Virus record (IMG/VR): IMGVR_UViG_3300021962_004212
Coordinates: 1-33,589 of that record
Length of the DNA: 33,589 nt
From: a virus
Direction: 5' to 3' (one strand)
Both the position numbers and the translations under genes were made by a program. Of the stretch, positions 1,824-6,364 are shown in pieces (within the stretch, counting starts at the first letter, position 1; every line of letters begins with the position of its first letter). The notes beneath the pieces were generated by a model. That model made no database searches. It was not told the origin of the DNA and was given only the letters and a program-made list of their open reading frames with translations.

Positions 1824-2582
1824 TTAAGAAAATGAAACTTTGCCAATTTTTATTTGTTCCTCAAAAAATAAAGATACGGCTACTGCTCTGGCTTGGTTCT
1901 TAAGCCAACTATCAGTCCATTCGTCTCGGTACTGCTTTGCACTTATGATGTCCATTTTATTAGCTTTGTAGGTAATAATCTCCATTAGTTTCTTTTTAGC
2001 AAGTGCGCCATCTTCTTTTGTCCATACCTTGATGCCTGTACTATTAAGCTTTGTAAATACGGATAATGGGTTAAACAACCTATCAAAAGTTCTATTTTCC
2101 AGAACCTTATATTCCTGGTAACTGTAATCAATTATTTCTAAATCGGTTAAGTGTGGTATTGCTTCTACTCGTTCTTGTGGTATCATTTTTCTAACTTCGT
2201 TTGCTTTTTTCTTGTACCTATCCATTACCTGACTAAAATATGCAGGACTAAAGTTTTGGTAATGGTCTATAAAGTCATTGGCTACCATTTGCTTAAACGC
2301 TACTTTCACTTCGTTTATTGTAAAGTTCCCATATTCAGTCCTTATCCAATCTTCTAATAAAGCTAACTTAACTTCTCCAGGTGTATTAATTCCTACAAGC
2401 TGCATCAAGTAAATAATGTTTTGCTTAAATATGATAGAGTTTAGGTTCCTCATTCTTTCCCCCGAAAATGCGGTCATAATCTCCTTCTCCATAGGAAGTA
2501 GAGTAGACATAGTTGTGATTTCTAAGTTCTTCGAGTTCGTGCTTATTAAGTTTTCTGTGATTGTTTGTAGTTCCTTTTGCAT
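1824..2582 (-). CDS. probable replication accessory protein, 252 aa or shorter
   Basis: No firm family assignment. The protein is helical and charged, with a block GNFTINEVKVAFKQMVANDFIDHYQNFSPAYFSQVMDRYKKKA (in pieces: GNFTINEVKVAFKQ, NFSPAYFSQVMDRYKK) of the kind found next to replication initiators in Bacteroidota phages and prophages. It follows the replisome organizer, so a helicase-loader or initiator-partner role is possible. The first in-frame ATG (2582) would give a 158-nt overlap with the upstream gene; later ATGs at 2510, 2492 and 2453 shorten this to 86, 68 or 29 nt. The true start is undecided. Confidence 0.65.
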   Translation of the reverse strand: MQKELQTITENLISTNSKNLEITTMSTLLPMEKEIMTAFSGERMRNLNSIIFKQNIIYLMQLVGINTPGEVKLALLEDWIRTEYGNFTINEVKVAFKQMVANDFIDHYQNFSPAYFSQVMDRYKKKANEVRKMIPQERVEAIPHLTDLEIIDYSYQEYKVLENRTFDRLFNPLSVFTKLNSTGIKVWTKEDGALAKKKLMEIITYKANKMDIISAKQYRDEWTDSWLKNQARAVAVSLFFEEQIKIGKVSFS

Positions 2583-3159
2583 ATTGTTTAGAGTTTATTA
2601 ACCAAGTATTTGCTGCGTGTGTCCAACTTTTCATTGGGTTTTTCCCTACTTTCCACCCGTTGCTTGTATAGTAATTTACAAACTTTTCAGCTTCAATCTT
2701 AGCTAAATCTAAACTAATTTTATTAGCCATATATTCAAAAGCTTGTTCAAAACTACATTTACTTTTATTAGTATTAATATCTTTATTTATATTTTCATTT
2801 ACATTTTCCATATGGGAGTCCATATGAGGTTGCATATGCGTTTCATATGGTGGTTCATATGAGGGTTTGTCTTTAGGTTTCATATTGTTTCGCCTTGACT
2901 CAGTAAAGGTTTTACGCTTTTCTTTTTCAACATCAAGCCTGACATTGTACCATAAACCTTCGTTATCCTGAATAAACTTGCATTTCACTTGTTCCCACAA
3001 GTGTCCAACCGTATGTTGTATCATATGCGTATTCATATGACCTCGATTAAATTGAAGCATTAGCAGGTCCATATATGCACCTTTTTCTTCAAATGTCATT
3101 CCCATTGTGCCACTTACATAGTCACCGGGATAAAATAAAAAAGCTGGGTCTTTTGCCAT
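2425..3159 (-). CDS. replisome organizer / DUF1376-like replication initiator, 244 aa
   Basis: The N-terminus (MAKDPAFLFYPGDYVSGTMGMTFEEKGAYMDLLMLQF) is the winged-helix start typical of phage replisome organizers of the DUF1376 type. A low-complexity linker follows (about residues 75-135, rich in Pro, His-Met, Asn and Lys). A C-terminal helical domain (about 136-190, AFEYMANKISLDLAKIEAEKFVNYYTSNGW) is of the kind that contacts helicase or loader. The role is to bind the origin and recruit the replicative helicase. The linker-coding DNA carries regularly spaced CATATG palindromes beside an AT-rich tract, which points to the origin lying inside this gene, as in lambda O. Confidence 0.8.
   Translation of the reverse strand: MAKDPAFLFYPGDYVSGTMGMTFEEKGAYMDLLMLQFNRGHMNTHMIQHTVGHLWEQVKCKFIQDNEGLWYNVRLDVEKEKRKTFTESRRNNMKPKDKPSYEPPYETHMQPHMDSHMENVNENINKDINTNKSKCSFEQAFEYMANKISLDLAKIEAEKFVNYYTSNGWKVGKNPMKSWTHAANTWLINSKQYAKGTTNNHRKLNKHELEELRNHNYVYSTSYGEGDYDRIFGGKNEEPKLYHI
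2755..2861. other. putative replication origin inside the initiator gene
   Basis: The iteron-like array (2809-2861) directly abuts an AT-rich tract. I count 42 A/T of 48 bases at 2761-2808, which encodes an Asn/Ile/Lys-rich linker. Iterons plus an AT-rich unwinding element within the linker of the initiator gene is the layout of the lambda origin in gene O. This is inference from arrangement only; no replication data are available. Confidence 0.5.
2809..2861. repeat. array of five CATATG palindromes, 11-12 bp apart
   Basis: CATATG occurs at 2809, 2821, 2833, 2844 and 2856, with start-to-start spacing of 12, 12, 11 and 12 bp. Two more lie at 3022 and 3034, again 12 bp apart. The first three are read as His-Met and the last two as (Ser/Pro)-Tyr-Glu, because the 11-bp step changes the codon phase. 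The DNA word is therefore kept while the amino acids change, so selection on DNA is more likely than a peptide repeat. These look like iterons spaced about one helical turn apart. Confidence 0.75.
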
Positions 3160-3260: not shown

Positions 3261-3290
3261 CAAATATACACTATTTATCCGTAATTTCAA
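3261..3290 (-). promoter_or_regulatory. candidate Bacteroidota-type promoter (P3)
   Basis: Reading the minus strand, TTG (3290-3288) is followed after 19 bp by TATATTTG (3268-3261), which matches the TTG / TAnnTTTG consensus. It lies across the 3' end of the DnaA-like gene and would start a transcript with a leader of roughly 90 nt that contains the nested hairpin before the replisome organizer. AT-rich DNA produces chance matches, so this is moderate evidence. Confidence 0.45.
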
Positions 3291-3699
3291 TTTTTTGACA
3301 AATTCTTTTCATTTTGTCCTTAAACCAATCTTCCGTGTCTATTAGGTTATTTGCTTGTTTGATATTGTGAATTGCGGTCGTATGGTCTTTAGTTCCGGTG
3401 TATGCGCTTATCTCTTTAAGGTTCAATTTAGTATACCTTCTCAGTAAGTAAGCAGCAGCCTTGCGACCAAAGGTAGTTCTTAAAGACCTATCCCTTCTTG
3501 ATATATCGCATTCAAATGCTTCTTCTACTAATTTTACGATGCTTCTCGCACCTATATCCGCACCTAAAGGCTCGTTATCTTCTATGCCTAACAACCCTAA
3601 TTGCGACATCATTTCGTGCAGTTTAACGTGGGTATTACGTTGAGCATAGTATAACTCCTTTAGTTGTCTTATTGAAACATCTTTATTTCTCGTTAGCAT
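3271..3699 (-). CDS. DnaA domain IV-like DNA-binding protein, 142 aa
   Basis: Residues about 65-120 match the C-terminal DNA-binding domain of DnaA: an N-terminal helix pair (SLRTTFGRKAAAYLLRRYTKL), then LKEISAYTG and the signature DHTTAIHNI at 105-113, equivalent to GRDHTTV in DnaA. There is no AAA+ ATPase part, because 142 aa is far shorter than DnaA. It may bind DnaA boxes or phage origin sites, either to recruit or to compete with host DnaA. It starts 2 nt after the SSB-like small gene, in the replication operon, one gene upstream of the replisome organizer. Confidence 0.75.
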   Translation of the reverse strand: MLTRNKDVSIRQLKELYYAQRNTHVKLHEMMSQLGLLGIEDNEPLGADIGARSIVKLVEEAFECDISRRDRSLRTTFGRKAAAYLLRRYTKLNLKEISAYTGTKDHTTAIHNIKQANNLIDTEDWFKDKMKRICQKIEITDK

Positions 3700-4266: not shown

Positions 4267-4799
4267 TAGCTTTTCTTTATATGTTCTTTGATCTTGTTAT
4301 ACTCCTCTAAGGTCTTGATAGCTTTTATTTTCTCAATAGCTTTATACTTCTGCTCCTGAGTAAACTTTGTTTTATCAAGTGCTTCAATTAAGAACGCCTT
4401 TTGACCTTCGCTTACTTCGTCTTTATGCTCATTAGTAGCATCTGCATCTTTGGTATCGTCTATTGCGAAAAGTCCGTTAAGCGCATATTTTCGAGCATAC
4501 GAGCTACACGCACCAGTGAGCTGCGCTGCGTCCATACCTTTCTTATTCTCCTCTTCACGGGCAAGACCTGTGCAGGTTATATTGTCATCTCCGTTACTTA
4601 GACAAGCGGTTGCCTTTACATACACTCGCCCACCTACTTCTACTACTTCGTCGCTTAACATTAAAGCGTATCCGTATTTATGGCAGATAGGTTTTGCTGC
4701 TTCGATTATATCTTCTGCACTTCGGTATTTGTATTTAGCAAAAGCGTTAAATTGGTTTTTAGGTGCTTTTAATTCCTGTTGGATTTTAATTAAACTCAT
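4266..4799 (-). CDS. erf: ERF-family single-strand annealing protein, 177 aa
   Basis: The N-terminal two thirds carry the ERF superfamily pattern: LKAPKNQFNAFAKYKYRSAEDI, a central KPICHKYGYALMLSDEV, and MDAAQLTGACSSYARKYALNGLFAIDD at about residues 89-115. The C-terminal 60 residues form a charged helical tail (EGQKAFLIEALDKTKFTQEQKYKAIEKI). ERF proteins bind single-stranded DNA and anneal complementary strands for phage recombination and genome circularisation. The VRR-NUC nuclease downstream in the same operon is a plausible partner. Confidence 0.9.
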   Translation of the reverse strand: MSLIKIQQELKAPKNQFNAFAKYKYRSAEDIIEAAKPICHKYGYALMLSDEVVEVGGRVYVKATACLSNGDDNITCTGLAREEENKKGMDAAQLTGACSSYARKYALNGLFAIDDTKDADATNEHKDEVSEGQKAFLIEALDKTKFTQEQKYKAIEKIKAIKTLEEYNKIKEHIKKS

Positions 4800-4809
4800 T
4801 GTTGTTTTT

Positions 4810-5037
4810 TTATTCGGTTTCTTTAAATGCTTTTTGTACTTCTGGATTTGTGCTTAACTGCTCAAATATAAACTCATACCTTTGATTTTGAAATTTTAAA
4901 GGTACAATTTCATTATACAAGCTATCTGATTTGGACTGTATTGCAGCCATTTTAATCTTCATATTATTTGTCTGCTTTATTATAAACACAATTAATAAAA
5001 TTATAATAAATAGTAAAACGATAATTAACTTTTTTAT
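4810..5037 (-). CDS. small membrane-anchored protein with probable non-AUG start, up to 75 aa
   Basis: Translating 5040-4810 by hand gives an open frame straight after the in-frame TAA of the upstream gene. If the ATA at 5037 is read as the start, the product begins MKKLIIVLLFIIILLIVFII, a textbook membrane anchor, followed by a soluble charged tail that ends FKETE. The first ATG (4962) would give only the 50-residue tail and leave the membrane segment unused. Options are an AUA or AUU start, readthrough of the TAA, or a 50-aa gene from 4962. It lies between the ERF gene and an unknown gene. Confidence 0.5.
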   Translation of the reverse strand: MKKLIIVLLFIIILLIVFIIKQTNNMKIKMAAIQSKSDSLYNEIVPLKFQNQRYEFIFEQLSTNPEVQKAFKETE

Positions 5038-5040
5038 AGC

Positions 5041-5238
5041 TTATAGATTTTGAGTGTCAATAGAATAGTGTTCTAAAATTTCGATAATCGGTTCTTGCCT
5101 TTTCTTTAGGCTAAGAAAATACTCGTATGCCTGAGAATAATCTAAGTACATACTTGCGCCATCGTATTTGTTATCTACTAAAGTATAATAAAAAATAGTT
5201 CCGTCTGGCTTAGTTTCTTTTACAAATTCAATCTTCAT
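5041..5238 (-). CDS. hypothetical protein, 65 aa
   Basis: Unrecognised, with a beta-rich N-terminus (MKIEFVKETKPDGTIFYYTLVDNKYDG) and a helical acidic end (SLKKRQEPIIEILEHYSID). Its ATG lies in an 11-nt overlap with the upstream gene. Its stop is in the same frame as the membrane-anchor frame just downstream, separated only by one TAA. Confidence 0.6.
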   Translation of the reverse strand: MKIEFVKETKPDGTIFYYTLVDNKYDGASMYLDYSQAYEYFLSLKKRQEPIIEILEHYSIDTQNL

Positions 5239-5434
5239 ATAATTCGGTTTTTAAAAGTTCAAGTTCTGCATTGTTTTGTACCCAACGAGTAAACGTGTAA
5301 TCGTCATCTTCGTAATCGTAGTTTTTAGGCAGTAATCTGGGGTCGTTCGGGTTTTGTGTACTGCTCCCGTCGTGCAGTAAGATAGTGCCAAATCTCTCGA
5401 ATTGGAACTTCTGGTACGTGGTTAAGTGTGTCAT
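5228..5434 (-). CDS. hypothetical early protein, 68 aa, first gene after promoter P1
   Basis: First gene of the left operon; its ATG is about 17 bases downstream of the -7 box of P1. The sequence is acidic (NYDYEDDDYTFTRWVQNNAELELLKTE), with no membrane segment and no recognised domain. Small acidic proteins at the front of an early operon often target host factors or DNA-binding proteins, but nothing in the sequence proves that here. Confidence 0.6.
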   Translation of the reverse strand: MTHLTTYQKFQFERFGTILLHDGSSTQNPNDPRLLPKNYDYEDDDYTFTRWVQNNAELELLKTELYED

Positions 5435-5450
5435 TTGTGTTTTGTTTCAA

Positions 5451-5484
5451 CAAATTTACTACAATTAACAATACGAAGTACAAA
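5451..5484 (-). promoter_or_regulatory. Bacteroidota-type promoter P1 (early/replication operon)
   Basis: Minus strand: TTTG (5484-5481), a 22-bp spacer, then TAAATTTG (5458-5451), matching TTG / TAnnTTTG. The predicted start lies about 10 bases before the ATG at 5434. The leader word CAAAACACAAA just before the ATG is shared with P2, as is the 28-nt box 4 bases upstream of the -33 element. Confidence 0.65.
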
Positions 5485-5488
5485 ACTA

Positions 5489-5516
5489 TATAAATTATTT
5501 TTGCAACATTGTTGCA
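5489..5516 (-). promoter_or_regulatory. shared upstream regulatory box, copy 1
   Basis: A 28-nt element on the minus strand, 25/28 identical to 28617-28644. It begins with the perfect inverted repeat TGCAAC-AAT-GTTGCA and continues into an A/T tail. It lies 4 bases upstream of the -33 box of P1. The palindrome suggests a dimeric repressor or activator, and the A-rich tail could also act as an UP-like element. Confidence 0.7.
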
Positions 5517-5517
5517 T

Positions 5518-5622
5518 TTGTACGTAGGATTGTACGGATATACGTACAGATAATGTGTCATAAAACGCACTTTAACGTACAAAAAAGTGTCGTGTAAGGG
5601 ACTTTTGCGACAAAAAAGTGTC
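5518..5622. repeat. repeat cluster upstream of P1 (TGTACG and GTGTC repeats)
   Basis: GTGTC occurs at 5555, 5587 and 5618, 31-32 bp apart. The last two share a 12-bp word, CAAAAAAGTGTC. Each is preceded by CGTACA or a variant (5543, 5576, and GCGACA at 5607). Further copies of TTGTACG lie at 5518 and 5530, and TGTACG (5531-5536) forms an inverted repeat with CGTACA (5543-5548). No gene lies at 5435-5722. These look like an operator array or a second origin-like site. Confidence 0.6.
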
Positions 5623-5722
5623 ACATAATTTTACATAAAGTAAGGGTAGAACTTTACAAAATATGTAATAAAGTTTGCCAAAGTAGGAAATAAAATGCAG
5701 CCAAAAGTAGTAGTATTACTAC

Positions 5723-5893
5723 CTAATTTAAGAAAATTTTAAGCGTTCTTTTGCCGTCTTGATAAGATAATTCAATCGATTTGAAGTCCCCAAGCTCTTG
5801 GTATAAGGTTAATATCCTACCTATTGGGTAATCGTTTTTAGCGTGGTTAATTACTTCTAATCTTGTAATTTCTGGCTTGGTTTCGTTTTCCAT
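5723..5893 (-). CDS. small hypothetical protein, 56 aa
   Basis: ATG at 5893, TAG at 5723-5725. The product reads MENETKPEITRLEVINHAKN and continues with DYPIGRILTLYQELGDFKSIELSYQDGKRTLKIFLN (shown as two parts: DYPIGRILTLYQEL and GDFKSIELSYQDGKRTL). It has an acidic helical start and a predicted beta-hairpin at the end. The composition is clearly coding-like, and I know it as a common kind of small phage protein without a function. It is the last gene before the repeat-rich control region. Confidence 0.7.
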   Translation of the reverse strand: MENETKPEITRLEVINHAKNDYPIGRILTLYQELGDFKSIELSYQDGKRTLKIFLN

Positions 5894-5935
5894 TTTATAA
5901 AATGTTGTTGTATCTAAATTATAATAAGTTGCACT

Positions 5936-6364
5936 TTAGAGCAACTTTTGAAAGTAAAGTTTGTCAGAACCCCCGTAAGAATACTCTGGAAGGTAAAGCC
6001 TAAAGCCACACGCAATAAGATTATTTGCAGAAGGGAAGTTGTCTAAGGTTGTGTAAGTAATAGCTATATGGCAAAAAGTAGAAGCTGCCTTTAACCTGGT
6101 TTTTATCATTCGCTTTTGTATGCCTTGACCTCTATGTGATTTCTTAACCCACGCACGATTGAAAATGCAGATGCCTTTGCTATAAATAGAACCGCAATAA
6201 GCTACAATTTCTCCTTGATCTAACATAACCCACCATTCACGATTAAACTGGAACTCATCTCCGCACCCCTTAAAGTTTGGGTTTCTATAATCTAATTCCT
6301 TTAGCTGCTCGTAGGTTTCGTGATCTAATACGTTGCCGAAGCTAAATATCTTTTTGAGGCGCAT
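5936..6364 (-). CDS. GNAT-family N-acetyltransferase, 142 aa
   Basis: The central VKKSHRGQGIQKRMIKTRL (about residues 73-91) is GNAT motif A with the R-G-x-G acetyl-CoA loop. It follows a beta strand, IVAYCGSIYSKGICIFNRAWV. The later NLIACGFRLYLPEYSY is motif B-like. The length is normal for a minimal GNAT domain. The substrate is unknown; phage GNAT proteins can modify host proteins or small molecules. The gene overlaps the MazG-like gene by 23 nt. Confidence 0.85.
   Translation of the reverse strand: MRLKKIFSFGNVLDHETYEQLKELDYRNPNFKGCGDEFQFNREWWVMLDQGEIVAYCGSIYSKGICIFNRAWVKKSHRGQGIQKRMIKTRLKAASTFCHIAITYTTLDNFPSANNLIACGFRLYLPEYSYGGSDKLYFQKLL

Follow-up and report, generated by a model that had tools for sequence, protein, structure and literature searches.

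The DUF1376-like replication initiator gene of this virus likely carries its own replication origin, in the manner of lambda O, with the initiator's binding repeats placed within the gene itself; no binding or replication data are available. The window analyzed is the whole virus record, 33,589 bases in length. The gene contains two arrays of the 6-bp palindrome CATATG and an adjoining AT-rich tract. DNA-level conservation of the words, recurrence of the layout with its AT tract, and replacement by other words in other subfamilies are shown by sequence.

The initiator gene (2425..3159, minus strand) encodes 244 amino acids and hosts both arrays. Its protein matches Pfam DUF1376 (PF07120) with 25.7 bits (E 1.5e-5), below the curated cut-off of 30.1, and also matches phrog_9327 (primosomal protein). 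A fold search against a viral library returned DUF1376 and Lin1244-like N-domain proteins as the best named relatives, the annotated viral DUF1376 proteins with E values down to 6.5e-7. The protein is named DUF1376-like because its Pfam score is below the cut-off and its fold links it to annotated viral DUF1376 proteins; the match is genuine though sub-threshold. Searches of solved structures by sequence and by fold gave no significant match for the initiator, and the N-domain model had no significant match in the PDB. The protein is predicted by structure modeling to be ordered as N-domain, disordered linker, and C-domain. The predicted DNA-binding N-domain (residues 10–93, encoded at 2881..3132, minus strand) has a pLDDT of about 84–95 over most of its length and is modeled as helices, two short strands, and a helix, a winged-helix-like arrangement. 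The disordered linker (residues 98–131, 2767..2868, minus strand) has a pLDDT below 50, and its coding region contains the linker array as well as most of the AT tract. The helical C-domain (residues 137–232, 2464..2751, minus strand) is common to a sister group of phages with another N-domain and other words.

CATATG occurs eight times in the window versus 7.3 expected by chance, and is not enriched overall. Seven of the eight copies are clustered within 231 bp of the initiator gene. Five form the linker array (2809..2814, 2821..2826, 2833..2838, 2844..2849, and 2856..2861), spaced 12, 12, 11, and 12 bp apart, and two form the N-domain array (3022..3027 and 3034..3039), 12 bp apart. The first three linker words, of which the one at 2809 adjoins the AT tract, are read CAT ATG (His-Met), and those at 2844 and 2856 are one codon phase off, read xCA TAT Gxx. 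The residue preceding Tyr-Glu at 2844 varies among Pro, Ser, and Thr in relatives, yet its codon always ends in CA. The word at 2856 (Ser-Tyr-Glu) is optional and is missing from many relatives, with 2–8 changes per site. Both N-domain words read His-Met and are unchanged in 50 distinct relatives. The conserved unit is the 6-bp palindrome alone, and its flanking bases vary. When the gene was shuffled among synonymous codons, five copies within 160 bp were reached in 0 of 100 shuffles, and seven copies divided between N-domain and linker in 0 of 60.

The AT-rich tract (2761..2808) has A/T at 42 of 48 positions, is read as linker codons NVNENINKDINTNKSK, and is the presumed strand-opening element. 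It follows the linker array in the C-terminal direction. Only 66 of the 33,542 48-bp segments of the window reach 42 A/T. Third codon positions within the tract accumulated 0.39 changes per site among the 50 relatives, versus about 3.6–3.8 elsewhere in the gene. Across families of relatives, a segment AT-richer than its own gene follows the array in 39 of 40.

Much of this had been proposed in an earlier note. Its five words at 2809–2861 with 12-, 12-, 11-, and 12-bp spacing, plus two at 3022 and 3034, held exactly, as did its reading of three of the five as His-Met and two as Tyr-Glu with a change of phase, and its 48-bp tract with 42 A/T adjoining the array. Its DUF1376-type initiator held with the correction that the Pfam match is below cut-off. 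The pair at 3022 and 3034, mentioned merely as two more copies, is a second array kept in all 50 relatives.

Constraint on the words was measured in close relatives L002–L057 (n = 56; 73–99% identity), two of which lack part of the gene start and one part of its end. Six words are kept at matching places in these relatives. Changes were counted on a tree of 50 distinct genes. The six common words (36 sites) had no changes, versus 196 changes over 51 linker spacer sites (3.84 per site) on the same tree. The 12 third codon positions inside words were likewise unchanged, whereas third positions outside words averaged 3.77 changes each in the N-domain, and those of the linker spacers 4.41, with the C-domain also within about 3.6–4.4. 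The sequences are related, so these counts are not independent events. Kinship does not explain the contrast with neighboring sites, which belong to the same genes and were scored on the same tree. Codon choice gave the same picture. Histidine codons within words were CAT in 250 of 250 cases, versus 63 CAT and 152 CAC elsewhere. His-Met was encoded as CATATG in 245 of 245 cases (121 expected) and 108 of 108 (66 expected) in two separate samples. The close relatives were retrieved with six peptide patterns, two of which contained His-Met, so that sample is not word-blind; the other two samples, a spaced-word scan and a KDPA[FV]L[FL]Y scan, were chosen by other criteria. The words are thus conserved as DNA rather than through the protein. 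The earlier note had predicted that CATATG would persist in homologs while linker residues varied, and its prediction was borne out in these relatives.

The breadth of the CATATG version was surveyed by a DNA scan of viral contigs for three copies 4–7 bp apart, which returned at least 119 loci. An N-domain HMM found the initiator at 89 of the 119 scanned loci; the remainder are mostly repeat-rich proteins or isolated matches. At six of the 89 HMM-positive loci (L085, L107, L134, L142, L099, and L095), most or all of the array lies outside the matching reading frame, and frameshifts, split genes, or extragenic arrays are possible. Clustering at 70% identity gave 42 families, 40 of which have words; because the word was a selection criterion of the scan, these numbers describe breadth, not frequency. 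Neighboring words less than 40 bp apart are spaced by 11 or 12 bp in 117 of 123 cases across the 42 families. All three codon phases are in use (107, 46, and 41 words). In one common form, the words are read ...SIC.AYD... at the N-domain array and ...AYAKHM... at the linker array, and all three phases are then found within one gene. In the protein alignment, N-domain words fall in different registers by family (columns 120/132 or 135/146/157), which means that residue conservation alone does not account for them. The N-domain array is missing from some CATATG families. Four distant DUF1376 genes (L101, L150, L185, and L195) have three linker CATATG words exactly 12 bp apart in an Ile-Cys phase, and in the first three of these the array is present even though gene A/T is only about 33–37%.

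Frequency was estimated from a sample gathered with the single peptide pattern KDPA[FV]L[FL]Y, which is unrelated to the word. At least three words are present in the gene at 79 of these 80 loci, usually one pair per place, with few outside the gene. The only locus of the 80 without any CATATG (L309, 3001–3798) has AYAKRM in place of AYAKHM, and its word was maybe lost or changed. Searches for a cultured phage carrying the CATATG version found none.

Related phages replace both the N-domain and the words. Sister group L058–L081 has flanks mostly 75–100% identical to the window, and shares the C-domain and AT tract. Across gene positions 60–360, identity to the window is mostly 30–60% and CATATG is absent; identity resumes at the AT tract. 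The differing block holds the N-domain and both arrays. Several sister-group members and relatives have TTAGGT/AACCTA-type words at 139, 150, and about 293–323. In more distant DUF1376 genes the words include GTTGAA and CGTTGA, again in the N-domain and linker and about 11 bp apart. The N-domain and its words thus differ as one block between otherwise similar phages.

Spacing of other words was compared with synonymous-codon shuffles at p<0.01, which replaced an over-permissive degenerate 7-mer test in which shuffles also reached high counts. Arrays passed in 13 of 61 non-CATATG DUF1376 representatives, versus 0 of 78 neighboring control genes; the other 48 representatives had no exact-word array at this threshold. 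An exact-6-mer search of individual genes from Rhizobium, Microcystis, Flavihumibacter (L201), and MT837034 found no other word. The two-array layout is common in DUF1376 genes, and has not been demonstrated to be universal. A gene annotated as replication protein O in E. coli phage vB_EcoS-673R7 (L319, 754–1542; no Pfam match) has TAACGC at 149, 161, and 172 and at 368, 379, and 402, and it is possible that the layout extends to O proteins with other N-domains, as in 673R7. The N-domain array, reading in all three phases, the words of other subfamilies, and cassette exchange were all absent from the earlier note.

Neighboring genes were examined for replication functions. The gene immediately downstream (1824..2582, minus strand) overlaps the initiator gene and encodes a 252-amino-acid protein of unknown function with an all-helical model. 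No helicase-loader domain was recognized in it, and a solved-structure search gave no significant fold match. It occupies the place where several relatives encode a helicase loader or DnaB, and a loader role for it is a guess. DnaB-like genes follow the initiator in L139, L126, and L201, and the one in L139 is confirmed by Pfam. Named phages encode a DnaC-like protein, helicase loader, or DnaB next to the DUF1376 gene. E. coli UC4316 encodes a DUF1376 protein with a DnaT domain followed by Phage_lambda_P. The upstream gene (3271..3699, minus strand) encodes a 142-amino-acid protein that has only the helix-turn-helix of DnaA domain IV (Bac_DnaA_C, E 3.2e-11); similar small DnaA_C proteins adjoin several relatives.

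Other origin candidates in the window were considered. One-mismatch matches to the DnaA box TTATNCACA number 32 in the window versus 47 expected, with none in the initiator gene. A DnaA/oriC-type origin was rejected, as the window has no DnaA-box cluster. The region 4750–6000, around the 5.5-kb position that the earlier note had named as an alternative, is AT-rich but has no comparable spaced array. Within it, 5436–5740 lacks long open reading frames, contains a perfect 13-bp direct repeat (ACAAAAAAGTGTC, positions 5579 and 5610), and lies where GC skew turns positive (5001–6000); it is possibly a promoter or operator region. GC skew is uninformative for the origin because nearly all long open reading frames are on one strand. 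No tRNAs were detected in the window.

The favored explanation is an origin that works as in lambda O, and protein binding to the words, melting of the tract, and a replication start at the gene are inferred, not shown. The earlier note had proposed a lambda-O-like origin in this gene; the layout, the AT tract, the predicted domain order, helicase or helicase-loader neighbors in relatives, and the C-domain that lambdoid O proteins have in common with YdaU support the proposal, and binding and firing remain inferences. The palindrome CATATG is most likely the binding site of the N-terminal winged-helix-like domain, and the inference that this domain reads the word is strong, without binding data. 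Sites 11 or 12 bp apart would recur about once per helix turn, and would make up two arrays, with two or three sites in the N-domain segment and about three to five in the linker segment. By analogy with lambda O, filled arrays would form an O-some-like complex, the adjoining AT tract would then open, and the replicative helicase would be positioned by the C-domain with the help of helicase loaders or helicases encoded nearby. The second array may join two complexes, act as a reservoir, or dampen the gene's own transcription. Word and domain would be swapped between phages as one cassette, so that related phages would recognize different words.

The main rival explanation is that the words are an operator through which the initiator limits its own transcription, with the true origin elsewhere. 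Plasmid Rep proteins do self-regulate through their iterons, and the sequence data reveal a constraint like that of binding sites, not what binding does. However, operators usually lie at promoters, and these words are 120–350 bp inside the gene. The array adjoins an AT tract constrained at silent sites, relatives have helicase-loading neighbors and O-type or DnaT C-domains that indicate initiation, and 4750–6000 offers no array of this kind. We consider the operator unlikely. Still less support exists for the words serving copy-number or incompatibility control, partition, recombination, or packaging. Sites for such transactions are likewise clustered short words, and the segment is exchanged between phages, but the words track the DUF1376 N-domain rather than a packaging or partition gene, and other DUF1376 subfamilies carry different words at these two places. 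This reading is very unlikely.

Selection could instead act on the protein, for example on a His-Met-rich linker that binds metal and is encoded as CATATG by chance. Three of the five linker words and both N-domain words do read His-Met in the window. Against this, all three phases are used, histidine within words is never CAC, residues around the words vary freely, and no relatives were seen to keep His-Met with CAC codons; this explanation is all but ruled out. The word could also be driven by the host, for example as a methylation or restriction site kept or spread irrespective of replication. CATATG is the NdeI site, and palindromes are typical of restriction-modification sites. Yet the rest of the window shows no enrichment of the word, its 11/12-bp spacing is strict, and unrelated words replace it in the same layout in other subfamilies, which makes a host-driven word highly improbable.

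Phages and prophages, among them Rac of E. coli K-12, commonly encode DUF1376 proteins, whose function Pfam lists as unknown. If the lambda-O-like origin is correct, the origins of many uncultured phages, along with the recognition word of each initiator, can be read from the genome, and the family supplies many natural protein-word pairs and swaps for studying the evolution of initiator specificity. The gene also illustrates cleanly how a DNA signal can persist within coding sequence while the codon phase in which it is read changes. A bolder reading, which we lean toward with reservation, is that DUF1376-type initiators are very widespread self-contained phage replicons. The DNA-binding domain and two arrays of its own word would be one exchangeable specificity cassette, and replicon identity would change by cassette swap or drift while the AT tract, C-domain, and helicase-loading partners are kept.

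Several known systems resemble this one. Iteron plasmids (RepE/F and similar) also have an initiator that binds spaced repeats beside an AT-rich region; these repeats are around 19–22 bp long and, in most cases, located outside the rep gene. Open-access literature on DUF1376, YdaU, and CATATG iterons yielded no link to an origin, with subscription papers mostly outside the search. DUF1376 genes of two named phages, annotated as hypothetical proteins, have arrays in the same two places: Pseudomonas phage UFJF_PfDIW6 has CGTTGA at 182, 193, and 208 and at 366, 374, 385, and 399, and Bordetella phage vB_BaM-IFTN2 has GTTGAAC (one mismatch or fewer) at 183 and 194 and every 11 bp at 341–385. Their words differ from CATATG, and their N-domains are only distantly related to that of the window.

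The cryptic prophage Rac of E. coli K-12 carries an active origin, oriJ (PMC3945230). Its YdaU protein has a DUF1376 N-domain (E 2.7e-26) and a C-domain in common with lambdoid O proteins, matching those of Gifsy and mEpX1, and the neighboring YdaV is an ATPase of the IstB/DnaC-like type. This O-type C-domain was not found in the window protein. The ydaU gene (L310, 3620–4477) has repeated TGTTCAA words in its N-domain and linker, and an A-rich stretch comes after them. Its word differs from that of the window, and its repeats are fewer and individually weak (1 to 13 of 100 shuffles reach them). It is possible that oriJ is the ydaU gene.

In lambda, the central part of gene O contains initiator-binding repeats with an AT-rich tract beside them, and the helicase loader is encoded next (PMC7466680). 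The window resembles ori-lambda and its lambdoid relatives in having repeats and an AT tract inside an initiator gene whose product is predicted to have an N-terminal DNA-binding part, a linker, and a C-terminal part. It differs in its 6-bp palindrome at 11/12 bp, where lambda has longer inverted-repeat iterons; the earlier note had remarked that so short a unit appears unusual for an iteron. The window also has a second array in the coding region of the DNA-binding domain, its N-domain is DUF1376-like, and its downstream protein is not recognizably P. No O family match was found in either the N- or C-domain of the window protein, whose only matches are to DUF1376 and to PHROGs of primosomal or unknown type. 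By analogy, the initiator would act like lambda O, which it resembles in layout but not in sequence family, through a word far shorter than the lambda iterons.
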